A stretch of 64,000 bases of DNA from Emydura subglobosa (Eukaryota; Chordata; Testudines; Chelidae): assembly GCA_007922225.1 (NCBI GenBank), contig ML680086.1:8497472-8561471 (forward strand), read 5' to 3'. The notes below the pieces were generated by a model. The model saw nothing but the letters and a program-made list of their open reading frames with translations, searched no databases and was not told the origin of the DNA. Both the position numbers and the translations under genes were made by a program. Below are positions 16,109 to 57,130 of the stretch, one piece after another (the first letter of the stretch is position 1; each line of letters begins with the position of its first letter).

Positions 16109-16694
16109 AAGTCCAGCTCCCGGTTTTCACGGCTGGTCTGGTCTGCTTCTCCAAGCACAACAGCGCGTCTGTATTCGCGTGCTGCTGACCGGCCCAGTGC
16201 CACACCATAAAGGCAAATGTTTTCAATGCCAGATACCAGCGCATTAGGCAGGCATTTATGTCCTTCGTCTGGTGTAGCCATTTTAAGGCCATGTGATCAG
16301 TCACCACCATGAATGGGCTTCAGAGGAAGTAGTAGCGAAGTGCCTCCACCACCCACTTCACGGCCAGTGCCTCCTTTTCAACTACTGAATATTTTTGCTC
16401 TCTCGGGAATAACTTCCAGCTGATGTACAGCCTGGGGTGTTCCTCCCTGTTGATGTCCTGGGATAGAATCATGCCCAGGCCCACGGTGGAAGCATCCATT
16501 TGGATGATGAAGCCCTGATTGAAGTCCAGGCTGTACAGTACGGGCTCCTGACAGAGCATGTCTTTCAGGGCTCGAAAAGCCCTCTTGCGTGGAGGGGTCC
16601 ACTGTACATGCATCAGCTGGGTTTTGGTTAAAAGGTTCATCAGGGGGGCAGCGATGGTGGTAAAGTTGCAGATGAACTGCCGATAGTATCCCAC
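16107..16694 (-). pseudogene. Ty3/Gypsy RNase H domain (Gmr1-like pol C-terminus)
   Basis: The frame 16694-16320 starts at the RT connection (MGYYRQFI) and carries the first RNase H carboxylates, QMDASTVGLGMILSQ and EKEALAVKW. After a frameshift the reading continues at 16310-16107 with VVTDHMALKWLHQT and NTDALL, typical of the C-terminal end. It degrades the RNA strand during reverse transcription. No integrase follows: the frame stops in the polypurine tract. So the polyprotein ends with RNase H, unlike ordinary Gypsy elements. Confidence 0.85.
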
Positions 16695-17515
16695 CAGCCC
16701 TAGGAATTGCCTGACTTGTCACTTTGTGGCCAGGGCGGGTTGTTCCTGGATAGCCTGAACCTTTCTGATGAGGGGTCATACCACTCCTCATCCCAGGGTG
16801 TAACTGAGGCACTTCTTAGGATTTGCCGTCAGGTTGGCTTCCCGAAGGGCTGTCAGTATGGCCGCGACATGGTTGAGGTGGTCCTCCCAGCAACAACTGT
16901 AGATGACCACATTATCCAGATAGGCAGCCGCATATTCACATGGGGCTGCAGGAGTCGGTCCATCAGCCACTGAAAGGTTGCAGGGGCCTCGTGTAGACTG
17001 AAGGGCACCCGGGTAAATTGAGAGAGCCCTTTGTGGGTGGCAAAGGCCATCTTCTCCTTGGACCCCGGTTCCATGGGGATATGCCAGTAATCCTTTGTTA
17101 AGTTGAGGGTCGAGATATACTGGGCCTCCCTGAGGTCATCAGGGAGCTCGTCGACCCAGGGCATGGGGTAGGCATCAAACCTGGATATCAGGTAGACCCT
17201 CCAAAAATCGATGCAGAATCGGCAGGACTCATCTGGCTTGGGGACCAAGAACACTGCACCACTCACTTGTGGAGGGCTTAGTCACCCCAAGGTTCAGCAT
17301 CGTTTGGACTTTCTGGTTGATGGCCTCCCACAGGTGCCGCATGAGGGGTCAGGTCAGTGTATGGACCACCTCCCCGGGGTTAGTCTGGATCCGATGGTGT
17401 ACTAGGGTGGTCTGACCCAGAATCACAGTGAAGGTCTTGGGAAAGGCCTCCAGAAGGTGTCAGGCCTGCTTCAGTTGTCTCTCGGTGAGACTGTCATCGA
17501 GTAGCGGTTTCTAGA
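16695..17515 (-). pseudogene. Ty3/Gypsy reverse transcriptase (Gmr1-like)
   Basis: The lead-in SLTERQLKQA near 17.5 kb is followed by an open 137-codon part (17266-16853) with SAVFLVPK-type fingers, RFCIDFWRVYLISRFDAYPM and the palm motif LNLTKDYWHIPM. After a frameshift, 16970-16788 carries YLDNVVIYS in place of the usual YxDD box. The second active-site Asp has become Asn, so the copy is dead even without its frameshifts. The order and spacing of blocks are those of Ty3/Gypsy RT. It follows the integrase tail directly, with no gap. Confidence 0.88.
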
Positions 17516-17534
17516 GATTGTCTGGGTCTGGGAG

Positions 17535-18590
17535 TCATGGCCCTAATTCCAATTTGGGGGTGTAGGGCATGATCATCAAGGCTTCCCATTCATGCCAAGG
17601 TTTCAGTAAGTTTACATGGTATATGTCTGTGCTTCCAGTGATGGGGTTGGTCGATCTCATAAGTGACGGGGCCCATCTGTCGGATGACTTCATACGGGCC
17701 TTGCCACTTGGCCAGTAGCTTGGACTCCTCAGTGGGGAGAAGCACGAGAACCCAGTTGCCGAGACAGAAAGCCCTGGTGCGTGCTCTGTGGTTGTACATT
17801 CGGGCTTTGGTTCTCTGGGCTTCTCAGAGATTCTCCCAGGCAATCTCCCCAGCCTGGATCAGTCGGTCCCCAGAGTAAGGACGTACTGGAGTAGTCCCTG
17901 AGACCGGGATGGGGCCCGCTCCCAGATCTGCTTCACGAGGTCCAATATACCCTGTGCCTGACGCCCGTACAATAGTTCAAAGGGAAAAAACCTTGTTGAC
18001 TCCTGCAGCGCTTCCCAAATGGTCAGGAGTACGGGAGGGAGTAGCTGGTCCCAGTGGTGTAGTTCTTAATTCCCAAGATGCTGCACACTTCCTGGAGTAG
18101 GCGGGAGGTGAAGTTGGTTTCCTGGTCAGAGAGGATTTCCCAGGGTAGCCCTACCCTGGCGAAGATTTTCAGCAGCTCAGCGGTGATGGTTCGGGCTGTG
18201 GCGTTCCTCAGGGGGATGGTCTCAGGAAAGCAGGTGGCATAGTCCATGACGACCAAGATGCAGCGGAACCCAGTCGCGCTTTTGGTGAGGGGTCCCACGA
18301 GGTCCATCGTGACCTCTCGAAGGGGTTCCGACCAGGAGGAAAGGCACTAGGGGGGCTCTTGGCATGCTTGGGGGTGCCACTATTTGGCACTCTGGGCATG
18401 ATGCACAGTAGTCTTTCACCTTCTGGTGGATCTTTGACCAGTAAAAGCAGGTCAAGACCCAGGCCAGGGTCTTCTCTAGTGCAGGTGGCCAGTGGCAGGG
18501 ATGTCATGGGCCAATTTCAGGATGGCCCAATGGTGGGCCCGGGGTACCACCAATTGAGACCGGAACTGGCTATGATGGCTCCATTCCCCT
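17535..18590 (-). pseudogene. Integrase located upstream of RT (Gmr1-like order)
   Basis: From 5' to 3' on the minus strand: a zinc-binding region (about 18.45-18.56 kb) with KDYCASCPECQIVAPP; the catalytic core at 18307-18023 with MDLVGPLTKSATGFRCILVV (first Asp), AILVVMDYAT-like strands and LSDQETNFTSRL (second Asp); the C-terminal tail at 17843-17535 with NWVLVLLPTEES, WQGPYEVIRQMGPVTYEI and YHVNLLKPWHE. It cuts target DNA and joins the element ends. Several frameshifts and stops break it. Gag, protease and the 5' LTR are missing beyond 18.6 kb, so the copy is 5'-truncated. Confidence 0.88.
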
Positions 18591-19299: not shown

Positions 19300-20905
19300 T
19301 TTAAAAGGGGGAACCCTTATTTCTTGAAGGGGGTGAGTAATTGAAACAGCTTGAGGGAAGAACTCCAGATGGATTCCATCTAATCTGTAACCCAGTGAAT
19401 TCCTGAAGAGAAATCAGAGCAGGTAGAGGAGAGCCAGGGTATGAAAAGGAAACTGACAGGAAGACAGCTTTCATCATGCTTTCCCCCTTTTCAGCCTTAT
19501 ATACACTCAGTCCCTGGCTGGTAGTAGCTAGTTGCAGGATATAGGGTTTATCTTTCCGAGGATAAGCCAGAGTTGGTGCCAATGGCAGGGCTTGTTTTAA
19601 CTTCACAGATGAAGTGCTCTGCTCCTCTCCCCATTGCCATTCCTTTCCTTTTTTTTAGGAGCTGATAGCGTGGCCTTGCCAGTTCCATGTAGTATTCTAT
19701 AAAATCGTGGGAGAATCCCATTAAGCCCAAAAGGAACGCAGAGCCGTAATGTGTTGTGGCTCTGGGAGCTTACAAATAAGCTCAACACGTTGAGTGTCTG
19801 GATGACGTCCATCTACTCCCATTTCTACACCGAGATACGTGACTTTTTGTTTTGCTATCTGTGCTTTTACTAGATTGATCAGGAATCCTCTCATATTTAT
19901 CCTTTCCAACACAATCTCAAGCATTTTCAAATTCTCTTCCCTAGTTGGTGTAGCTATTAACACGTCATCTACATAGGCGAGTACATTTTCCTTATAGGGT
20001 ATTCCATCTCACATTCCTGATACCTACTTATAACATATTGATGGGCATTGAGGAATCCCCTGGGGTACCCTGGTGAACATGTATTGATGATTACAAAATG
20101 TAAAAGCGAACTTATACCAAGATTATTCATACAAAGGGATGGAGAAAAATGCATTTGAAATGTCAAGCACTGAAAACCATTTGGCTTCTGCACTTACAAT
20201 AGTCATTAGCTCATGGAATTTAGCCATGACTGGTGTTAGTCTCGGGGTTACTCTGTATAACTCCCAATAATCAGTGGTGAGATGCCATGTCATCTGGTCC
20301 ACCTTAAGGACCAGTCAAATCAGTGAGTTACAGACACTCATGGTCTTAATCAAAACACTTTGTCTTTATGGGGAAGTAATAGTTTCCCAAAGTCCTTCTT
20401 CTGCCTTAGCTGGATATTTGTACTGTTTCTGTGGTTTTGGGTCTGGACCATATACCGTTACCTGTTCTTTGCGTTGCATTACATTGCAACTTATTTTTAG
20501 CAAAAACAGCTCTATGCCTCTCAACTATTACCATAAAGTCCTGATCCCAGGTAAGTAAGCTGAGATCTTGCAGTGCCTTGATAGCTGCCACTCTGTGCAT
20601 AGCGGATATCACATATCCACTTTCAGGCTTAGCATCCATCATTAATAAAATCCTATTCGGCAGATCAACCACTGCTTCCAGTTCTTTCAAGGCATATATG
20701 TTTAAAATAGCATCACCCTCAAGTTTTGTAAACCAAAGGTATAATAACCTTCTTAGACCCGATGATACATCCTATAGTTCTTGTAAAGGGAACAACACTA
20801 GTTTTTCCATTATATCCCCCTACCTCCCTAACTTTTTCTACAGGCATTTCCTGAATGCAGATAACTGGTAGAATATAATTCATGTACATGAATATGTGCT
20901 GCTAA
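19300..20905 (-). pseudogene. Endogenous retrovirus protease end and reverse transcriptase
   Basis: On the minus strand a retropepsin-like C-terminus (about 20.87-20.63 kb; GDAILNIYALKELEAVVDLP after a frameshift) leads into RT. RT fingers and palm lie at about 20.45-20.0 kb (WFSVLDISNAFFSIPL). The active-site box YVDDVLIATPT is at about 19943-19975, QKVTYLGVEM follows, and a connection segment ALPLAPTLAYPRKDKPYIL lies near 19.55 kb. YVDD with intact aspartates is preserved, but stops and frameshifts run through the gene. RNase H is at most started before the fragment ends near 19.3 kb. This is an orthoretrovirus-like type, distinct from the Gypsy element next to it. Confidence 0.8.
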
Positions 20906-31224: not shown

Positions 31225-31790
31225 GGTGGCACGGTCCGGCCGGACCATTGCGACCCTCCCTTGGGCCCAGGCTCCGAGGAAGGCCACAGCACCTTCTTTT
31301 AGAAGTTTACAAGTCTTTAACCCTGGCCCCCAACGGCGTGGGCTAGCAAGCTGTCTGGTGCCCCCGACCCTCAGGCAAGGTGGGGCAGGCAAAGCAGTCT
31401 ATTGTCCTTGGCCTTCCCACAGGTGGGGTTAGTACAGCAGTCTGGTGCCCCCGGCCCTCTGACAGGGCAGGGCAGGCAAAGCAGTCTATTGTCCTTGGCC
31501 TTCCCACAGGTGGGGTTAGTACAGCAGTCTGGTGCCCCCGGCCCTCTGACAGGGCAGGGCAGGCAAGCAGTCTACAGTCCCTGGCCTTCCCACAGGTGGG
31601 GCTGGTAACACAATCTGATGCCCCCAGTCCTGAGGCAGGGCAGGGCAGGCAAGCAGTTTACGGTCCCTGGCCCGCAAGCCAGGCAGGGCTAGTGGGGCAG
31701 TCAATAGCCCCTGGCCCTCCCACAGGTGGGGCTAGCAAAAATATCCTGAGGCCCCCAGCCTCATAGGCAGGAGGGGCCAGTAGAGCTTGG
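31225..31790 (-). mobile_element. Probable LTR fragment with minisatellite (Gmr1-like family)
   Basis: This is a GC-rich block in an AT-rich setting. Its 'ggcagggcaggcaagcagt' repeat resembles the tandem repeats in LTR-3 (15.2-15.4 kb) in the same relative orientation, so I infer a minus-strand LTR remnant. No ends or target duplication are visible. Confidence 0.4.
31340..31770. repeat. 86-87 bp minisatellite, about 4.5 copies
   Basis: 'caggcaaagcagt' or 'caggcaagcagt' recurs at 31386, 31473, 31560 and 31646 (spacings 87, 87, 86). The first copies are nearly identical and the later ones drift. Long open frames across it merely reflect the repeat. Confidence 0.95.
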
Positions 31791-40374: not shown

Positions 40375-42145
40375 ACTGTTGACTCAACTCAACATGGTTG
40401 ACTCATATTTAGCTTATGATCCACTATGACCCCCCCAGATCCCTTTCTGCAGTACTCTTTCCTAGTGAGTCATTTCCAATTTTGTATGCATACAACTGAT
40501 TGTTCCTTCTTAAGTGGAGTAATTTGCATTTGTCCTTATTGAATTTCATCCTATTTACTTCAGACCATTAAGTTTGTCCAGATCATTTTAAATTTTTAAA
40601 CCTATTCTCCAAAGCACTTGCAATTCTTCCAGCTTGGTATCATCTGCAAACTTTATAAGTATACTCTCTATGCCATTATCTAAATCACTGATGAAGATAT
40701 TGAACAGAATCGGACCTAAAACTGATCTCTGTGGGACCCCACTCAAAATTCCCTTTCAGCTTGACTGTGAACCACTTATAACTACCCTATGGGAATATAT
40801 TTCTAGCCAGTTATGCACCCACCTGATAGTAGATCCCTGTAGGTTATATTTTTCTAATTTGTTTATGAGAAGATCATGCGAGACAGAATCAAAAGCTTTA
40901 CTAAAGTCAAAATATACCACATCTACCCCTTATTCACAAGACTTGTTACCCTGTCAAAGAAAGCTATCAGGTTGGTCTGACATGGTTTGTTCTTGACAAA
41001 TCCATGCTGACTATTACTTATCACCCTATTATCTTCTGGGTGTTTGCAAATTGATTGCTTAATTATTTGCTCCTTTATCTTTCCTGGTACTGAAGTTAAA
41101 CTGACTGGTCTGTAATTCCCTAGATTGTTTGTTTTTATGTCTCTTGTTTATAGATTGGCACTATATTTGCCCTTTTCCAATCATCTGGAATCTCTCCTGT
41201 CTTCCATGACTTTTCAAACATAATCCCTAATCCATCAGATATCTCCTCAGTCAGCTTCTAGGATGTATTTCATCGGGCCCTGGTGACCAGAAGACATCTA
41301 ACTTGTCTAAGTAATTTTTAACTTGTTCTTTTTAGATTCATATCCTACCTCATTTTCACTGACATTCATTATGTTAGACATCCAATTGCTACTAATCTTT
41401 TCGGTTAAAAATTAAAGAAAAAAGTCATTTAGTCCTTCTGCCATTTCCACATTTTCTGTTCTTGTTTTCCCCCCCTCATAGAGTAACAGGCCTGCCTGCC
41501 CTTGGTCTTCCTCTTGCTTCTAATGTATTTGTAGATTATTTTCTTGTTACCCTTTATATCTTTATCTAGTTTAATCTCTTTCTGTGCCTTTCTAATTTTG
41601 TCCCTACATACTTCTTGTATTTTATATTCATCCTTTCTAATTTGACCTAATTTCCATTTTTTTTTCCTCTTTTTTTCTGATCATTGAAGATCTCCTGGTT
41701 AAGCCAGGATGGTCTCTTGTCATACTGCTTATATTTCTTTTGCAGTGGGATAGTTTCCTCTTGTGCCTGTAATAATGTCTCTCTGAAAAACTGCCAAGTC
41801 TCTTGAACTGTTTTTCTTCTTAGCTTTGCTTCCCATGGGATCTTACCTACCACTCCATGAGTTTGCCAACATCTGCCTTCTTGAAATCCATTATCTTTAC
41901 TATGCTCTCTTCCATCCTACTATTCCTTGGAATCATGATCTCTATCATTTCATGATGACTTTCCAACCTGCCTCCTACTTTCAAATTCTCAACCAGTTCC
42001 TCCCTATTTGTCAAGATTAAAACTAGAATGGCTCCTCCCCTAGTAGGTTTCTCCACCTTCTGAAATAAAAGGCAATCCCTTTGGGGATATAAGGAACAGG
42101 GGGAGACTCCATCTTCATCCTTCACCTTAGCAGACAAAGAAATCA
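40375..42145 (-). mobile_element. CR1 LINE, endonuclease to RT C-terminal part
   Basis: The minus strand reads an endonuclease C-terminal block at 42146-41847 ([19 protein letters not shown]), then the linker at 41853-41647, RT segments at 41.2-40.6 kb, and a truncated 3' part with typical CR1 phrases in reverse such as 'aattttgtatgcatacaac'. It is broken throughout. Confidence 0.88.
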
Positions 42146-44035: not shown

Positions 44036-44599
44036 CCAAGTTTTCATGCAATACCCTATACCCTGAAAGGGGTTTCCTCAGTAAATGGATCACACAAGGG
44101 CCTTTTTTCACTTGCTTTTCCTTGCTTTTACACCCCAAAGTTTATGGTCTTTGCACCCCATAGACAAGACAATCCTCATCTCTCTTGTCTTGACTCCACA
44201 TCCTCATATTGATGTGGAATACAAATGTAGCTGCCATTATGCTTGGCTTTACATCCGAGATGTAGGCAGACAAGTGATTCCACATCCCTGTGGAACCCCT
44301 CCCCACCCAGGCAAAACTTCTTGTCAATGCTGCCTGGGACACAGATTCTAAAACATGTTTTCAGTACATACACACAACTCCTTAAATATCATTCATGCAT
44401 ACATCATGCAATGATTTTGAAGATCAGATGATATAAGCTTTTATCAGACAATGTACACAACTCTTTCTAGATCAATACCAATAAAGTAGTGTTAGATGTA
44501 GTGAGTTTGTCAGGCCTAGTTGGCATTGCTCTTTTAGAACAGTGTATCCTTCAGCAGTTGGCACTGAAGGGTTCTTAGGATCATGCCCCCCAAACCCTC

Positions 44600-44739
44600 A
44601 CTGCTACTCTAAACGATCTAAAACCAAAGAAGCTTTTGTAAAAGGTTATGAACATACATTTACCAATGAGATATTCATAGTGGATGAAGCCTTAACCAAG
44701 GGACAAAACCTGTATAGTAATTTAAAAAGTATAGGGTGA
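44600..44739 (+). pseudogene. Polinton integrase C-terminal-like segment
   Basis: A short plus-strand frame contains KEAFVKGYEHTFTNEIFIVD. Its pattern of basic turn, aromatic and NEIF strand resembles the chromo-like tail of Polinton-type retroviral-fold integrases. It sits 160 bp upstream of the penton-like gene, as expected for that order. The catalytic core is not present, so this call rests on one segment and its context. Confidence 0.4.
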
Positions 44740-44901
44740 GAGTCACTGGATCATTTTACCCTGAAGAATTATAAAAAGTAAATCCCAAACAGGAGAAGAT
44801 TTAGAGGATTTAGCTGAGAAAGGAAAAGTGAGGGGGAAAAAGTGGCTACTGGTAAAAAGGTTAGAGTCATCTGATAAATTTAATAGCTGGCTGGAAGCAA
44901 A

Positions 44902-45620
44902 AGTGACTTTTATATCACTTTGTCCACCTATGTCAGCTCTGAGTTTTTTTTCCTCAAAACACCCAATTGAACTTTACAATACAGCTTGTTAAGCCCTTGG
45001 CTTTCCTGGGGATCTGGCTGGCAGAGTTAGTGGAACTACAATACCCACACAGCTGGAACAGTATCAATGAAGACACACTGTTTGAAATCATCTTTGGAGC
45101 TAGGAAATAGAGTTCCACCCTGCATCGAGGCTATTACTCATCCATACCTGAATTACTGGATCATATGAACAACACTGTGGCTGGTCATCTGGGACTGCCA
45201 GAGGTGGTCATGAACTATGACCCTGTGGGTAGAAACATTAGACTTAAAACCTCCTATGTTGCTTATACATTTTCTACCAATAGGAAGATAGCTAATATTT
45301 GAGATTTGGGCCTCAATCGTAGTGTCAAAAACATCCCCTTCTTATCAGACGCTACAGGGAGTTTTAACTCTTTGTAGCTATATATGGATATCATAGAATA
45401 GCAGTTTGTGGGGGTCTTTTCTGTACTCCTGTTACATTGTTTCCCCATCTGAGGAAGGATCAATGAGTTTGTCACCGTCATGTATGATAAACTGCATTAT
45501 GTTCCTGTCAGTAAATATCACATTGACATCATCACCATTGAAATAAAGAGACAATAATATACCCGTCTTGTTTTGCTTCAGCAAGGTGGTGATCAAGCTG
45601 CTCCTGGAGAGGGGGGAATT
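44902..45620 (+). pseudogene. Polinton penton-like minor capsid protein
   Basis: The N-terminus reads SDFYITL, followed by a poorly readable stretch, then WLAELVELQYPHSWNSIN (about 45018-45071), RGYYSSIPELLDHMNN, NYDPVGRNIRLKTSY, a short variable region, then YDKLHYVPVSKYHIDIITIE and SKVVIKLLLE at the C-terminus. This series is characteristic of the single-jelly-roll vertex protein of Polintons and adintoviruses, which forms capsid fivefold vertices. I count at least four in-frame stops and two frameshifts. Length (~240 codons) is close to the family's. Confidence 0.75.
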
Positions 45621-45735
45621 TTTTTAAAAGCAAAACACTATGACAACCCTAAAAATTATGGGGATCCCAGCATCTGCAGAAACTATTACAAAGCCCAGGC
45701 TGGATATGCCCTTCCTGGATATCATGGGACCCCCA
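45621..45735 (+). pseudogene. Polinton small core/minor capsid protein, N-terminal part
   Basis: The frame reads YDNPKNYGDPSICRNYYKAQ and then AGYALPGYHGTP. The 'DP...YY..QAG...Y.G.P' layout is typical of the short protein that lies between the penton-like and major capsid genes. The sequence then breaks off into about 900 bp of unrelated DNA, including an LTR. Confidence 0.6.
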
Positions 45736-45861
45736 CTGATACCAGAAAAATTCCCCAGACTCCATTTTGTATCCCTAGCTTCCATTTTAAAAAAGCAAGA
45801 GTCATTCCACCATTAGATAGAAGCTACAGGTCAAGTAGCATAGCACTAAAAATACAATTGG

Positions 45862-46348
45862 TGCGGAAAAGGGCAGTGACAGCAGATCATAAGACTGAGG
45901 AAAACAACAGTTGTAGGCTAAAAATAGAATTGGCCGTTAGAAACAAGTTTAAAAATACAAATGACAGTTTGGAATTTTGGCATGAGTCCAAGAAAGATGT
46001 TAGCAGAAGTGCCTAGAAAGTTCTGACAGGACAGTATCAAGGTCAGTGTGTCAGTGGGCAGTGGTTGGTAGGAGAGAGGCAGCTGAGGTGAAGAGAGAGA
46101 GAACAGCAGAAGCACCAGCAGTGACTGATAAAACCGGCAGCAGAGGGATCCTGTCTCTGGAGCAGAGACAGTGCAACAGAGTCAGCAGACAGAGTAAGCT
46201 TGTCAGTTATAGCTATAGTATAGTATAGTGTGCATGTGTGTGTTGGGGGGAATTAATAAAGTATATGAATGTGTGTTAATTGTGAAAGGAATTTATCTAT
46301 ATAAAGTTTAATAAGAACTGCTGTCAGCGGCCTGTGACAGTCTGACCA
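45862..46348 (+). mobile_element. Solo LTR (487 bp) inside the Polinton-like element
   Basis: It starts TGCGG and ends GACCA, flanked by TTGG at 45858-45861 and 46349-46352. An AATAAA occurs at about 46255, consistent with plus orientation. Flanking DNA on both sides (45736-45861 and 46353-46645) is also foreign to the capsid genes, so the LTR may lie within an earlier insertion. Confidence 0.6.
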
Positions 46349-46647
46349 TTGGTAACAGTGCAGCCACTTAGAATCATTTCAACTGTATGTTATTGCAGTT
46401 TAGGAGCTCTTTTAACTTGCAAGGGATTTGTGATTTTGATTGTTATTGTATCAGGTATTGTTATTTGCATCCACATTTGCACAAAGTGCCTTGTTTTGGA
46501 GAGAATACTGCTTGCGTCAGTCATTTATTGGAAGTCTGTATCTGTGTCTTCCAGGTATTTCCTTCGCCACCCTAGGAGACCCAGACCTAACAAGAACAGA
46601 TTAGTTATGTTCTGGGATTATGCTAAATCTGTTTTCAGGGTAACACC

Positions 46648-46878
46648 ATGATGTATAAGGGTGGCATGGGCAGAATAGGCTGTAGTCTTTTTTAAAAAAA
46701 AGCCATATCGCTTTTGAGGAGGGGGTTAAAGATTATTAAACCGCACATAAAAACCGCCACTCAAAACATAGCCAGAGATGTGGTAGGCCACATCTGCAAA
46801 GGTGTTCTGGAAAGGGTGGGTAATCTGGCTACACAGGAGGGATCAGAGTTAATGTACACTAAAAGGAGGAAGCTTTAA
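46648..46878 (+). pseudogene. Polinton small basic core protein, C-terminal part
   Basis: The 77-codon stretch starts MMYKGGMGRIGCSLF, followed by an in-frame TAA. It then continues KKAISLLRRGLKIIKPHIKT, ARDVVGHICKGVLERVG and the basic end YTKRRKL. The pattern (Gly-rich start, amphipathic helix, basic nuclear-signal-like tail) fits adenovirus pVI/pX-like proteins of Polintons. It lies 134 bp before the first readable capsid sequence. Confidence 0.65.
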
Positions 46879-47011
46879 GAGAGAGAGAAATTCATCACAC
46901 CTGCACCATATGTGTTCCCCAAAACACTTTACAAGAAGGACTTTGACATGCAGGGCCTGCCAAAAGCAGACACTTTCCACCTGGCAAAAGAGAGAGATTT
47001 TAATCAATGTG

Positions 47012-47802
47012 ACTTTTGTTCTCTGTGGATCAGAAAAGTGCACCAAATCCGAATTGGACTAGTTCCAAACAGTCCCTTTGCAGACCCACATCAAGAAAAG
47101 CATCTACATCGAGGTACCGCCTTTATTGGCCATTACAGAGGCTGCCCCCTCAATTCTTTTATAGCAGGGAATGATGGATTATATGAATTTAAACAACACG
47201 GTATTGTACCTTCGTTGCAAGATTGTAAAAGAAGACTGAATCGCTCTCACTAGGGTGGCTGAGGTGGGCTGGATAATTACCTTGTGGCCTCTATTTTCAA
47301 AAAATCAGATGTCATGTTGGGTGACCACCTTATAAGCCAAAGCAGCATCTGTTACCTTTATAGGTCCTTTATAGAATCGGTGCTCATTTACAGCCATGAC
47401 ATCCTCCCCACATAATTTTCCACTGGCCTGTTTCACAAAGACATTCCCAAACAACACAAAGCAACAGAGCTGTATGATGAGACACAAAGGCTTATGAGAC
47501 GGGCAAACCTGATGACCCAGAGCAGGAAGATAGAGCTTCTGGATCAACTACACGGTGACAGATTTTTCTTGAAAAATCTTTCATTGAATGGTGCAAATAT
47601 GAAAATTACATTGACATGAGGTAAGCCTTCTGCTTAATGGGTGATGTGATCAAAGACTGTGAACTATATGTTATATCAGCGTCCCTTTTTGTGGCTGGCC
47701 TCGGAGATCCACCTGGGGCATGCGGAGGCTCTGCTTACCATTAATGCTAAATACCCTGCGAACAGTGTAGGAATGAAAATGTTTACCATCCCTGCAGACA
47801 GC
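47012..47802 (+). pseudogene. Polinton major capsid protein (double jelly-roll), 5' part
   Basis: Legible blocks in order, in shifting frames: SEKCTKSELD near 47028; THIKKSIYIEVPPLLAITEA near 47087; MDYMNLNNTVLYLRCKIVKE near 47177; GDHLISQSS near 47321; FHKDIP near 47430; FFLKNLSLNGANMKITLT near 47564; then ALLTINAKYPANSVGMKMF and TIPAD near 47790. These are hallmark stretches of the double jelly-roll hexon-like protein. The reading frame is broken by several frameshifts and stops. The assembly gap cuts it off about two-thirds of the way through. Confidence 0.82.
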
Positions 47803-47812
47803 NNNNNNNNNN
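47803..47812. other. Assembly gap (10 N)
   Basis: Ten N residues. To the left the capsid gene reads on the plus strand; to the right only minus-strand coding character is seen. The true gap size is unknown. Confidence 1.
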
Positions 47813-48740
47813 AGCAGGTGATTGGGTCCTGCATGTCAGACTGATTTTTTTTTTCTTTTGCAAAAGTTGGTAGGTCTATCATCTCATGTAGTGGGTCAGC
47901 AAAGATTTGGGGTGGAGGAGTTATTACCACATCATGTGAGTCCAAATGAGAGCCTTGAATTGCAAAGGAAAAAAACCCATGGGGAGGGATGGAGTTATTT
48001 AAAAATTTTCCTGAAGAGTAAGTCCCATGGGCCCTAAAGAAAGCTTGTTGGTTTGCTTACATGTGTCTGAGATGTGCCAATCAAGGAGCTACACAGAATT
48101 TGGCTGCTGTGGGTAGGGCTGTGTCAACCTTCCATTCTTCTGAGGCCCACACTCCAAGCTCCAGGTAGTTTACTGCATGTAAATATTTTGGATGAGACAA
48201 TATAATAGAAGGCCCTATCTATTCTGCCATTAGAGATCCCATACCACTCCCGATAAGAGTAGAGGTTTGCTCATTGGCCCATACCCCGCTCTGTCCCCAG
48301 TCCCATACAGTGTTGTGCAGAATGTCATAGGGTCTATGATGGACTAGGAAGCATGAAGGTTATTCTCTTGGAGTGTTAGGCTTCCTTCTCCATTTCCTTT
48401 TTGTTATGTGCAATTCACTGGAGAATGGTGCTTCCACAAGCAGAGACCATGGGATGGGATTTTTAAAAGCACTTACATTACTTAAGAGCACAAGCACCAG
48501 TGGCTTGGAGAGGGATCTGCGTGCCTATGTCATTTAGATCCTATTGGCAATTCCAGCCCATAAACCCCAGTGTCACCAGGTAATTCCTGGTGGCCTGGAA
48601 CAGTATAGGGAAAACAAGATGCTTGAAATGCTCCAATTTAACATTTAATCTTGTCTAAATCATCAGCTTTTTTATAACTACAAGCTATTTTATACGCAAG
48701 TGGGCCACTCGCTATGAAATGGGCATGTGTTTCAGCCCAA
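47813..48740 (-). pseudogene. Degenerate retroviral coding relic, possibly Env
   Basis: The minus strand is open over several stretches with protein-like composition: THAHFIASGPLAYKIACSYK (about 48.7 kb); DWGQSGVWANEQTSTLIGSG (about 48.3 kb); HAVNYLELGVWASEEWKVDT (about 48.15 kb); VITPPPQIFADPLHEMIDLP (about 47.9 kb). The Trp-rich, Cys-poor ectodomain style suggests a retroviral envelope, but I see no fusion peptide or membrane anchor, so the family is not established. Frames shift between blocks. Confidence 0.3.
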
Positions 48741-49780
48741 CCATTGATCAAAGCCAAAGCTTCTCAGAACTTGTCAGGACACAACTTTGCAACACAAATC
48801 CAATGGGTTCTTGACCCACTCTAGTTACTGCTGACCCCATCGTGTTAAAACCCTTAATACTAAAATGATGGGTTTCTGATAGGGAGACAGTCTTTAAAAG
48901 GACTCCCACTCTCAGGTTCTGTCCTTAACTATATGTATTCACCAGTGATGAACCCTCTTCTCTATGAAAAAGGATAGGGCAACAAATATAGTATGAATTA
49001 AGTGAATAATTCATTAGCGACATAATAGCTCAGTAGTTAATTAACACGTGGCATAAAGTCGGAAACCCAAACTAAACTAAGGTGGATAACAATAATAAAC
49101 TCATTAACAGATTAGGACATCACCATCTTTCACAACAATAGGGATGACAGACAGGACATAGGAACAGGATCTCCACCCAGACGACGACACCAATACAGGA
49201 CACCAGGAGCAGTGGGACAGGAACGATGACAAGAACTGGATCACAACAGGTAAGTCGTCTTCTTCTTCAGCAAACACAATGAGATTAAACGAACAGCACA
49301 CAACACAACTGCCTCCAGGGCAGGCAGCACAGAATGCTGTTTGCACAATGCTTAAATATCCTGCTGTTACTGGGCAGATTCTATTGATCATGTGACCTTT
49401 CCCACCTCCAAGCTTCCTGCCTTTGTCTCAAAAGAGCACCACAAGCAGAGAAGGGGAAGCAAAATGGAGGGCAAGCAACAACATGTATAAAAAAAATGGC
49501 TAAACAAAAACTTCCCTTACAATGGTCTGGCTCTAGAAGAGAGAAGCACAGCGGCCACCCAGGAAGAGATACAGCTCTGGATTTCTTTGATCCACCATGA
49601 TGAACCAGGGAGAGGTTTTCCAACCCAGGCAGGACAGACCAAAAAGAGGAGCCAGAACATAGAGGACTTAAGTTTTCCATGACCCAAAACACATATTGGC
49701 ACAAATGTGTCCCAGTTTTTGATTTTGAGAATGTGGTCAGCTTGCTGCCATAAATTAGGCTGTCCTAAATTAGGCTGTCA
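48741..49780. other. Non-coding or unreadable stretch
   Basis: No clear gene. Minus-strand frames at 49104-49391 (95 codons) and 49381-49704 (107 codons) overlap end to end and are open, Cys/Ser-rich and unrecognised. They may continue the retroviral relic to the left, but nothing diagnostic is visible. Confidence 0.35.
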
Positions 49781-50748: not shown

Positions 50749-53472
50749 CAGTGATGCACCAGCTGTTCCAGTAGTGCCCCCCATTACCATTCACAGAATT
50801 TTTTTTGCATCATCCCTCCAATACTTGTAATCTGAAACTGGGATTTTTTTGGGCAAATTGGCGGAAGGAATGAAAATTAAATTTTTTATTACTAACTTTA
50901 AAAGACTAGGTAAAGGTTATTAGGCAGTACTAAACACAAAGTATTACAAACTACAAACATATTTTTAAAAAATTTCAAATAAAAAAAAATTAATCACTCA
51001 TTAACTGTTCCTCCTTCAGTGAGACAGATGGGCCTGCATTTCTGAGGCAATGACATCCATTCTCGGTTTTATCTCGGAAACTGCTACTCTGAGATTATTT
51101 TCCACCTGCAGTCATGAGCTCTGTTTGGTCTTGATTGCCACCATCTTGGAGAAGGTAATTTTACACAGGTATTTGGATACAAATGGCAAGAGCACTTCCA
51201 GGGCAGTTGCTGAGAGTCCTGGATACTCCTTTTTCACAGAGAGCCAAAAGCTTCCCAGCACTTTTCCTTTGAATTGCATTGACTGGATGTGATCACTTGA
51301 CAGTTCTGACAGCACTTCTTGTTCAGCAAGAGGGAGATGTGTAGCTGCAAAATCTGCACAAAAAGTATTTCTAATCCAATCAATCTCCTTTACTGGCAAT
51401 CCATTAAACTTCTCCAATAACTCTTGAAGGAGATTTTAAGGGTGATTGGAGACAACTTCCTCAATTTGTTTATGGTGAAGTTGATATTCTTTTGGGAATT
51501 CACTGAGCAATGGAAACTGTCTGCATTTCCTTCTTCATATTTCTCTCTCCACAGAGTGAGCTTCTTCAAGAATGCAGAAATCTTGTCACCAAGCAGCAAG
51601 ATGTTGCTATTCTTTCCTTGGAATGAAGTGTTGAGATCATTTAATTTCTCAAATTTGTCTACAAGATACCAAAGAATCAAGAGCTGTCTTTCATTGATTA
51701 AGTTTCAGCCATGCAGGGTTGTGTTCCGACAGGAAGAGATGGAATTCATTCTTGAGACTAACAACATAACAAAACACCTTCCCTTGGACAATCATCTATG
51801 TTCCATAGGAAGGAGGAGCTTGTCAGGCAAGGAGCCCATTTCATTGCATAGAATAGAAAATAGCGAACTTTTTAAAGCAGATGCTTTAACAAAATTCACA
51901 ATTTGCACTGCATCATTCAAAACCTTGTTTGCTTCAGGTGCCAGTTTTTTAGCAGCCAGAGCCTCACAGTGTATCATTCCAATGTATGAATTTAATGTGG
52001 GGTGCAATGTTGAGTACTTTCTCTCTGAAGCACTTGGGACCCCTCATCGCACGTCCACCATCAGTACACACACCAATGCAATGAGACCGTGACAGGCCAT
52101 GTGCTCTGCCAATCTTCACAAGATTGAAGATGTCTTCTCCCATAGTTTGCCCCTCAAGTGGTTTGCAGAACAGCATATCTTCCAGAATTTCACCCTCATC
52201 ACAACTACTGACAAACACAATGAGTTGAGCCAAATTTGCGATATCAGTGCTCTCATCAAGTTCCATAACAAACTTTGTGCTTCATTTAACTCTAGTCAAA
52301 AGTTTCTATTTTATAGCTTTAGAAAGTTATTGATCTGCTTATTCATAGTATCCTGTGACAGAGAAAAGTTTTCAAAGTTTCACCATATCTATCTTCATGC
52401 ATAATTTGAGCCATCTTTACCACAGCTGATAATACTAATGCCTCACCAACATAATGCTTCTTCATCGACTTAGCAATCAAGTATGCTACTTCAAGGGATG
52501 CTTTCAGAGCTTTTGACCGCACAGTCACTTGTTTTCCCACCATGTCTGTTTGACCGCCCGGTGACCTAGCATTTGGAAAAAATTAAAGTCTTTATTTGTG
52601 TGCTCAGAATGTTTCATAATCAACTGACATCCGAGCTTCAACAGTTTCATGCTGTCATTTGCTAATACTTCAGAACACCTAGCAGTCATTGCTCATGATT
52701 GACAAGAGTCCATGAGAATGCCAGTTTTAAATATTCATTCTGATATTTTTTTAATGTAAAACTTAAAGGTTCTTTGATATCACATTTCATAGCAGACTTA
52801 CTAGCCCCATCACTTGTTGAAGTTTCACATACAAGTTCAGCTGCAGTACCAGTCGTACAAGTGGGTTTTTTTACATTTATTGGAGTAACATTAGCTTCTG
52901 ATGAGGAATCAGAAACACTGCAACATTTTACCACACACAACCCAGTTATCCATTTTCTTTGAAAAAGATTGAACTAACCTTTAGAAAGGAATACAAACAC
53001 AGTGCACTCGATACTGACTGTAGTAGAGTCTTTGATTGGTGCTTTTTATGGTGTCATAATCTGTGCATTGCTGATTAGACTGTGCATGCCAGAGACTTGA
53101 AGGTCACACTTGAAGGTGGAGAGGAATACAGAGATGAGACCATTCATTCATTCATTCGGTTTAGTGTTAGAGCATCTGATTCACTCAGGAGGTCCCAGGC
53201 TCTCAATTATTATTATGTGTTGCCAGTTTATGTCTTTTAATATCATTTATCAATTATTAAATGGGTTTTAAAATTAATTTTAAAGGTATAGTAAGGCTAC
53301 TGTAGTTATGAAACTTATCAAATTGTTGAAAATAAGCCAGCCTGTGCTTTTATTTGTGTATTTGTTTTTTATAAAGAATGAAAGGCTGAAGTTTCTTCAC
53401 AACCCCTGACAACCTCTTGTGCCACCCCCGAGGGGTTTGCTGGCCCCCTCCCCCTGGGTTGGCGCACCACAG
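50749..53472 (-). mobile_element. hAT DNA transposon (ZBED5-like type), complete but inactive
   Basis: The left end CAGTGATGCACC and the reverse complement of the right end CTGTGGTGCGCC form imperfect terminal inverted repeats. They are flanked by 8-bp target duplications with one mismatch (CTGTAGGC at 50741-50748, CTCTAGGC at 53473-53480). Both the 8-bp length and the CAG-type ends are hAT hallmarks. The transposase relic lies inside on the minus strand. Confidence 0.8.
51050..52960 (-). pseudogene. hAT transposase, ZBED5/SCAND3-like, broken
   Basis: On the minus strand, order N to C: a Ser/Thr-rich N-terminus (52940); KYQNEYLKLAFSW; an alpha-helical AYLIAKSMKKHYVGEAL block (52.5 kb); the first catalytic Asp in MELDESTDIANLAQLIVF (52.26 kb); LFCKPLEGQTMGEDIF; the second in GVCTDGGRAM (52.08 kb); CEALAAKKL; and the C-terminal dimerisation region SFWLSVKKEYPGLSATALEV (51.22 kb) with the catalytic Glu region. 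It would excise and reinsert the element. At least five frameshifts or stops separate these blocks. Domesticated relatives (ZBED5, FAM200) exist in vertebrates, but this copy is not one. Confidence 0.85.
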
Positions 53473-55659: not shown

Positions 55660-57130
55660 TCACAGAATCGTAGCACTGCAAGGGACCTCAGGAGGTCATC
55701 TAGTCCAGTCCCTGAACTCAAGGCAGGACTAAGTATTATCTAGACCATTCCTGACAGGTGCTTGTCTAACCTGCTCTTAAAACCTATGACGGTGATTCCA
55801 CAATGTCCCTGGGCAATTAATTCCAGTTCTTAACTGCCCTGACAGGAAGTTTTTCCTCACGTACAACCTAAACTGCCCGTGCTGCAATTTAAGCCCCATT
55901 GCCTCTTGTCCTATCCTCAGAGGTTAAAGAGAACAATTTTTCTTCCTCCTCCTTGAAACAACCTTTTATGTAATTGAAAACTGTTATGATGCCCCCCTCA
56001 GTCTTCTCTTCTCCAGACTAAACAAATCTAGATTTTTCAATCATGCCTTATAGGTCATGTTTTCTAGATCTTTAATCATTTTTGTTGCTTTCTCTGGACT
56101 TTCTCCCTTTTGTCCACATATTTCCTGAAATGTGGTGCCCAGAACAGGACACAATATTCCAGTTGAGGTCTAATCAGCGCAGATTAGAGCGAAGAATTAC
56201 TTCTTGTGTCTTGCTTACAACACTCCTGCTAATACACCCCAGACTGATGTTTGCTTTTTTTGCCACAGTGTTGCAAAATATTTTGACTCATATTTTAGCT
56301 TGCAGTCCACTATGCCGCCCTTTCTGCAGTACTCCTTTGTAGGCAGTCATTTTTCACTTTGTGTGTGTGCAATTGAATGTTTCTTCCTGAGTGGAGTACT
56401 TTGCATTTGTCCTTACTGAATGCCATCTTATTTACTTCAGACCATTTCTCCAGTTTGTCCAGATCATATTTAATTTTAATCCTATTGTCCAAACACTTGC
56501 AACCCCTCCCATCTTGGTATCATCCACAAACTTTTCAAGTTTTCCCTTTATGCCATTATCTAAATCATTGATGAAAATATTGAACAGAACTGAACCAGAA
56601 CTGATCTCTCCAAGACTCCAATTGATATGCCCTTCCAGCTTGTCTGTGAACCACTGATAACTACTCCCTGGGAATGGTTTTCCAATTAGTTACTCACCTA
56701 CCTTATAATAGCTCCATCTATGTTGTATTTTCCTTGTTTGTTTATGAGAAGTACATGCAAGACAATATCAAAAGCCTTACTAAAGTCACACCTCATCTAC
56801 CACTTCCCACTATCCACAAGTCTTGTTACCCTGTCAAAGAAAGCTATTAGGTTGGTTTGACATGATTTTCTCTTGACAATTCCATGCTGACTGTTACTTA
56901 CCAACTTATCTTCCAGATGTCTGCAAATTGATTGCTTAATTATTTGCTCCATTATCTTTCCAGGTACTGAAGTTAAGCTGTCTGGTTTGTAATTCCCTGG
57001 GTTGTTCTTATATTTGCTCTTTTTCTGTCTTTTGGAATCTCACCTGTCTTCCATGACTTTTTGAAGATAATCGCTAATGGCTCAAATTCCTCCTCAGTCA
57101 GCTCCTTAAGTATTCTAGCATGTATTTGTA
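55660..57130 (-). mobile_element. CR1 LINE, RT to 3' end
   Basis: Reading the minus strand, RT relics lie at 57.1-56.4 kb (ILKELTEEEFEPLAIIFKKS at the 5' side; LDKLEKWSEVNKMAFSKDKC at 56.43 kb). They are followed by the C-terminal part and the CR1 tail in reverse, ending 'cagaatcgtagcactgcaag' at 55.66 kb. 5'-truncated. Confidence 0.9.

Follow-up and report, generated by a model that had tools for sequence, protein, structure and literature searches.

Relics of a vertebrate Maverick/Polinton beside an assembly gap in the genome of the turtle Emydura subglobosa

The window analysed here is a stretch of 64,000 nucleotides from the turtle Emydura subglobosa (assembly GCA_007922225.1, contig ML680086.1, positions 8,497,472 to 8,561,471 of the forward strand), in which an earlier note, made from the sequence alone, had described the fossil capsid module of a Maverick, or Polinton. 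Mavericks are virus-like DNA elements with an integrase, a protein-primed polymerase and a capsid of their own. Between positions 44613 and 47802, the plus strand of the window carries, in this order, the relics of an integrase tail, a penton (the minor capsid protein), a small basic protein, PW, in two parts and the major capsid protein to about residue 271. The earlier note had named these relics in the same order on the same strand, which our tblastn and database matches bear out. Its block of 44540 to 47850 contains real homology, with limits that we have corrected to 44613 at the start and to 47802 at the end, where an assembly gap begins.

Related copies, referred to here as siblings, were identified by searching the genome of the same species (1.93 Gb in 1268 contigs). 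At least 37 other places match a 605-bp probe from PW and the capsid gene at 67-76% identity, with one 65-base row at 86%. Of 70 candidates, 40 were scored for this probe and gave 41 rows, i.e. the window, two contigs that bracket the gap and 38 rows at the 37 places. At least 39 other places match a penton probe, for which 40 of 77 candidates were scored. Seven siblings (L003-L009) were compared with the window copy; they are the best DNA matches, 7 of the at least 37 places rather than a random sample of them, and for L003 and L007 the stretch examined matches in the PW/capsid part alone. Protein searches were run against a database of 5.8 billion proteins, and the reversed window served as a control for chance matches in tblastn.

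The integrase relic (44613-44898, plus strand) is the C-terminus of the protein with its chromodomain, and its DNA is 75-77% identical to that of five siblings. With a sibling frame as the query, tblastn recovers it in three parts between 44617 and 44899 (E 1e-15 and 4e-07), and the homologous sibling frame matches the Pfam entry Chromo (PF00385) at 5.8e-07. At E 0.05, the reversed window yields nothing for the sibling frames used for the integrase tail and for PW. A chromodomain is typical of adintovirus integrases (PMC11071296). In the five siblings with an integrase tail, homology to the window sets in at 44613-44626, and the siblings' own sequence continues upstream of it.

The penton relic follows at 44907-45615 on the plus strand. 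Some 75 bases directly before it are missing by comparison with a sibling, and the sibling DNA match spans 44907-45740, which takes in the penton and the start of PW. From 44949 to 45548, the penton reads in a single frame without gaps for 200 codons, five of them stops. Its counterpart in tblastn (E 1e-81, as against 0.007 for the strongest hit to the reversed window) is the stretch of residues 19-218 in the Terrapene box turtle adintovirus penton, to which it is 65% identical at the amino acid level. When this one frame was used as a database query, with X at the stops, four proteins were found at E ≤ 1 among 385 candidates. The top match is 'TPA_asm: penton [Terrapene box turtle adintovirus]', at E 8e-74 and 64% identity over 99% of the query, and the other three are unnamed proteins with 41-48% identity.

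PW, which we named by its position in the published map, is split into two parts on the plus strand. The N-terminal part lies at 45651-45740 (tblastn against a sibling frame at 45651-45734, 75% identity, E 2e-12) and the C-terminal part at 46646-46998 (tblastn at 46633-46941, E 4e-27; sibling DNA match from 46646). In five siblings, the match across the penton and PW reaches 45733-45740 and restarts at 46646, 46648 or 46698; in the siblings themselves, the two matches meet or overlap to within 7 bases in L004, L005, L006 and L009 and are 47 bases apart in L008. Since the siblings are near-contiguous across this site, the window holds an insertion of about 905 bp (45741-46645) that the sibling copies lack. 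Its junctions show no evident target duplication, and the exact repeats shared between the border regions are at most 7 bases long. The syntenic block of the earlier note keeps its order but is less continuous than was claimed, its 'small basic core protein' being the gene that the insertion divides.

The major capsid protein relic (47009-47802, plus strand) covers residues 1 to about 271 of about 418, or about two thirds of the protein as compared with a turtle homologue of 418 amino acids, in two frames and with seven in-frame stops. Using three reference proteins, tblastn gave sum E values of 1.7e-52 to 1.7e-63, and the best match in the reversed window had E 0.94. The database search yielded three matches at E ≤ 1 among 44 candidates (E 4.6e-22 to 1.6e-16, 59-66% identity), all named 'uncharacterized protein F54H12.2-like' and coming from two turtles and one skink (Malaclemys terrapin, Caretta caretta and Tiliqua scincoides). 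A protein search with a 67-amino-acid piece gave no candidate, probably as only proteins of similar length were considered. Because of the gene neighbours in the siblings, we take proteins under this label to be Polinton capsid proteins, and, judged by its sequence, the relic is a homologue of the major capsid protein. A double jelly-roll major capsid protein is a feature of Polintons (PMC4028283).

The capsid relic breaks off at a run of 10 N (47803-47812), the sole one in the window and an assembly gap, and homology to each of the seven siblings ends at 47797-47802, right before it. Two contigs of the same assembly, C1094 (14,547 bases) and C1077 (14,545 bases), correspond at one end to window 47107-47802, with 99.7% identity across 696 bases; a 5.0-kb comparison of the two with each other gave 99.96%. 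The other contig end matches window 47813-47859, just beyond the gap, at 47 of 47 bases, and the order and strand of the two matches are correct; these 47 bases are shared exactly with both ends of both contigs. C1094 carries the capsid protein on to residue 417. Past the capsid, comparison with sibling frames identifies relics of PZ, PM, ATP and PolB, in that order and on the opposite strand, whose membership in this copy hinges on the contig belonging to this place. An adenovirus-like protease, another Maverick feature, would be expected in the same contig. A repeat of the long interspersed nuclear element (LINE) class, CR1-like in our reading, lies at C1094 5905-7980. In the window itself, the opposite-strand module (pPolB, ATPase, PM and PZ) has no match at E 0.05. 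From the overlap of the contigs, it seems that about 13.75 kb is absent from the scaffold at the gap, and that C1094 and C1077 would represent the missing right half of the copy, comprising the capsid C-terminus and the opposite-strand module that bears the polymerase. Graph assembly with words of 48 would produce a shared end of just this length, 47 bases, and a loop of the contig in the assembly graph is the probable cause.

A different account would be that the copy was truly cut inside the capsid gene, by a deletion or an insertion, and that C1094 and C1077 are a separate tandem or segmental duplicate. In the contigs, the 47-mer of the right flank also adjoins the base equal to window 47107, at odds with the window's own left side there, and a tandem duplication could explain this arrangement. 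However, the match ends exactly at the window's only N run, with contigs that fit both sides in order and strand, and identity to the contigs is far above the range found for the PW/capsid probe elsewhere in the genome, even the single short row at 86%; the contigs are therefore either this very locus or a duplicate of very recent origin. We consider a true cut unlikely and keep to the reading in which the scaffold omitted the right half. This case suggests that about 14 kb of an endogenous viral element can lie concealed at a scaffold run of 10 N, its sequence being kept in separate contigs, and that surveys limited to scaffolds may wrongly count such copies as truncated.

To the right of the gap, a run of protein-like open pieces occupies 47813-48925 on the minus strand; the six pieces scanned within it have no Pfam match at E 10. 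We no longer read it as the second Maverick module, since nothing that was examined downstream in three siblings matches it.

The sibling on contig C25 carries, on the strand opposite its capsid gene, a pPolB (PF03175, DNA_pol_B_2; 4.7e-30 and 1.3e-09 in two frames), followed by frames that we call ATPase, PM and PZ by map position; only pPolB passes the Pfam cutoff. The order int-mcp-PW-Mcp on one strand, as found in the window, is that of the published map of vertebrate Mavericks, in which two modules converge and the polymerase-bearing one lies on the strand opposite the capsid genes (PMC8097293). The window presents four genes homologous to those of Mavericks in the published order, the same genome holds dozens of related places, and the decay of this copy is evident in frameshifts, stops, an insertion and the loss of the left end. 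We are almost certain that window 44613-47802 on the plus strand is a decayed fragment of a vertebrate Maverick/Polinton of the beta-adintovirus group, namely the left part of a degraded copy inherited through the germline. The assignment to Polintons or adintoviruses proposed in the earlier note is upheld by capsid-family matches for both of the stretches on which it leaned (44902-45620, the penton, at E 8e-74, and 47012-47802, the capsid, at E 4.6e-22), by the gene order and by the DNA_pol_B_2 polymerase on the opposite strand of a sibling. Because the siblings carry this polymerase, assignment to another family is very unlikely. We have filed the copy as a truncated descendant and not as a complete element.

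Several observations weigh against this account. The window lacks the front part of the integrase, the upstream stretches of three siblings being unmatched in it, and a Pfam scan of two sibling integrase pieces revealed no rve domain. For the turtle capsid protein, the AlphaFold model has a mean predicted local distance difference test (pLDDT) score of 26.5 and is unusable for the double jelly-roll fold. The contigs are placed in the gap by overlap alone, and the occurrence of the same 47-mer at both of their ends shows a tangled assembly there. In the penton, changes fall on 25 of the 93 positions that are invariant among four reference pentons and on 45 of the 107 variable ones (Fisher p 0.027); the variable positions have changed more often, which implies that part of the divergence predates decay. 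Finally, no terminal inverted repeats flank the window copy, as is expected because its left end is lost, and no target-site duplication was found for it.

Three siblings had both of their sides examined for repeats. The one on contig C3 (L014, L017) carries a pair of inverted repeats, each about 300 bp long and 86% identical to its partner, and AGTAGT opens one of the two ends; the C25 sibling has a match to the C3 repeat on one side only, and no repeat was found in the third within the stretch examined. The C3 repeats match the window over 17 and 19 bases only (E 0.007 and 0.30) and have no match in the gap contig. The flanks of the C3 sibling, with its paired repeats, show no clear 6-bp duplication.

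None of the Maverick-region and other window pieces submitted to Pfam in three sets scored above the cutoff (ten pieces, best E 0.037; ten pieces, best E 0.043; five pieces, best E 0.29), and no convincing match came from sequence searches of the PDB, whether the query was a piece of the window or a reference capsid or penton protein (best E 0.13). Scans of IMG/VR for relatives found none; a lone DNA-pattern match there (L001) was rejected, as it encodes nothing capsid-like and looks like phage DNA.

The window copy is the most decayed of the eight copies compared. Over 1.1 kb, its Kimura two-parameter (K2P) distance from each of the seven siblings is 0.27-0.31, and the siblings are 0.04-0.19 apart; in a tree, its branch measures 0.21 and those of the siblings 0.01-0.074, and it groups with L003 (support 0.999). 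Stops make up 12 of 468 aligned codons (five in the penton and seven in the capsid), which translates into 0.21-0.29 substitutions per site. A rate of 0.0026 substitutions per site per million years has been given for mammals (PMC9683012). At this rate, the copy would be about 80-110 million years old. Turtles are thought to evolve more slowly than mammals, and for this reason the true age may be greater. In the capsid protein, changes fall on 47 of 137 invariant positions and on 70 of 127 other positions, in a count that drops residues beyond 271, gaps and X and that treats columns with one reference gap as variable, which inflates the latter class. Drift since the insertion would account for much of the divergence, and some of it looks older.

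An alternative to simple decay is that the host captured the viral gene cluster and retained it for a function of its own. Several genes are still recognisable in order, and conserved, possibly exapted Polinton pieces have been described in human and other mammals (PMC9004415). Set against such exaptation are the five penton and seven capsid stops, the frameshift in the capsid gene, the interruption of PW and the changes at more than a quarter of the invariant penton positions, and we regard it as extremely improbable. The preferred reading remains a decaying fragment, which would have entered the germline by means of the element's integrase, and would then have been inactivated and drifted as neutral DNA; related elements may have kept inserting in the same lineage later. 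We see roughly even chances that one Maverick lineage was active for a very long time in the ancestors of this species, with the window copy stemming from an early wave and the siblings (branches 0.01-0.07, some with long open frames) being far younger. If this is true, the genome holds a datable series of insertions by one DNA virus lineage, and copies of different age within one genome would permit the dating of successive waves. The window also adds a well-supported old copy to the fossil record of reptile Mavericks.

Other repeats are present elsewhere in the window. A retroelement relic, Ty3/gypsy-like in our reading, occupies 16323-18346 on the minus strand, with an RNase H-like domain (PF17919, 1.4e-26), an integrase core (PF00665, 1.6e-10) and a reverse transcriptase at 1.9e-06, just below the cutoff; a further reverse transcriptase piece (PF00078, 6.6e-10) lies at 19724-20008, also on the minus strand. 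Two related LINE copies, which we read as CR1-like, are found at 40441-41259 and 56318-57106; their blocks are 77-89% alike, and their minus-strand reverse transcriptase pieces (E 4e-06 to 9e-05) are below the cutoff. Pieces resembling a hAT transposase lie at 51115-52281 on the minus strand (Pfam Dimer_Tnp_hAT, E 0.043, below the cutoff), and a tandem array of an 87-bp unit, with 3.7 copies and 89% matches, is located at 31349-31672.

Among known systems, the proteins closest to the capsid relic are the F54H12.2-like proteins of Malaclemys terrapin, Caretta caretta and Tiliqua scincoides, which are gene models of 383-423 amino acids, whereas the window relic is a pseudogene. The penton, with its 65% identity over 200 gapless codons, is nearest to that of Terrapene box turtle adintovirus (BK010890.1, a number taken from PMC10812802), which serves as a reference for the Beta clade (PMC11071296). 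By comparison with this adintovirus, the surviving genes of the window copy are broken, its left end is lost and it contains an insertion; its PW and integrase were compared with the siblings rather than with the Terrapene record. We presume this adintovirus to be the intact Maverick reported from T. carolina. In their survey of vertebrate Mavericks, Nino Barreat and Katzourakis (2021, PMC8097293) give 3,511 loci in 143 species, turtles included, with 96% of them eroded, and 101 copies in Terrapene carolina. The (AGT)2 end motif of those Mavericks was seen here at one end of one sibling, and the window copy keeps no ends. Mavericks in turtles being already published, the window copy adds one more and comes as little surprise: the published elements have the same gene order and strands as the window copy and its siblings, and degraded copies are the rule among them.

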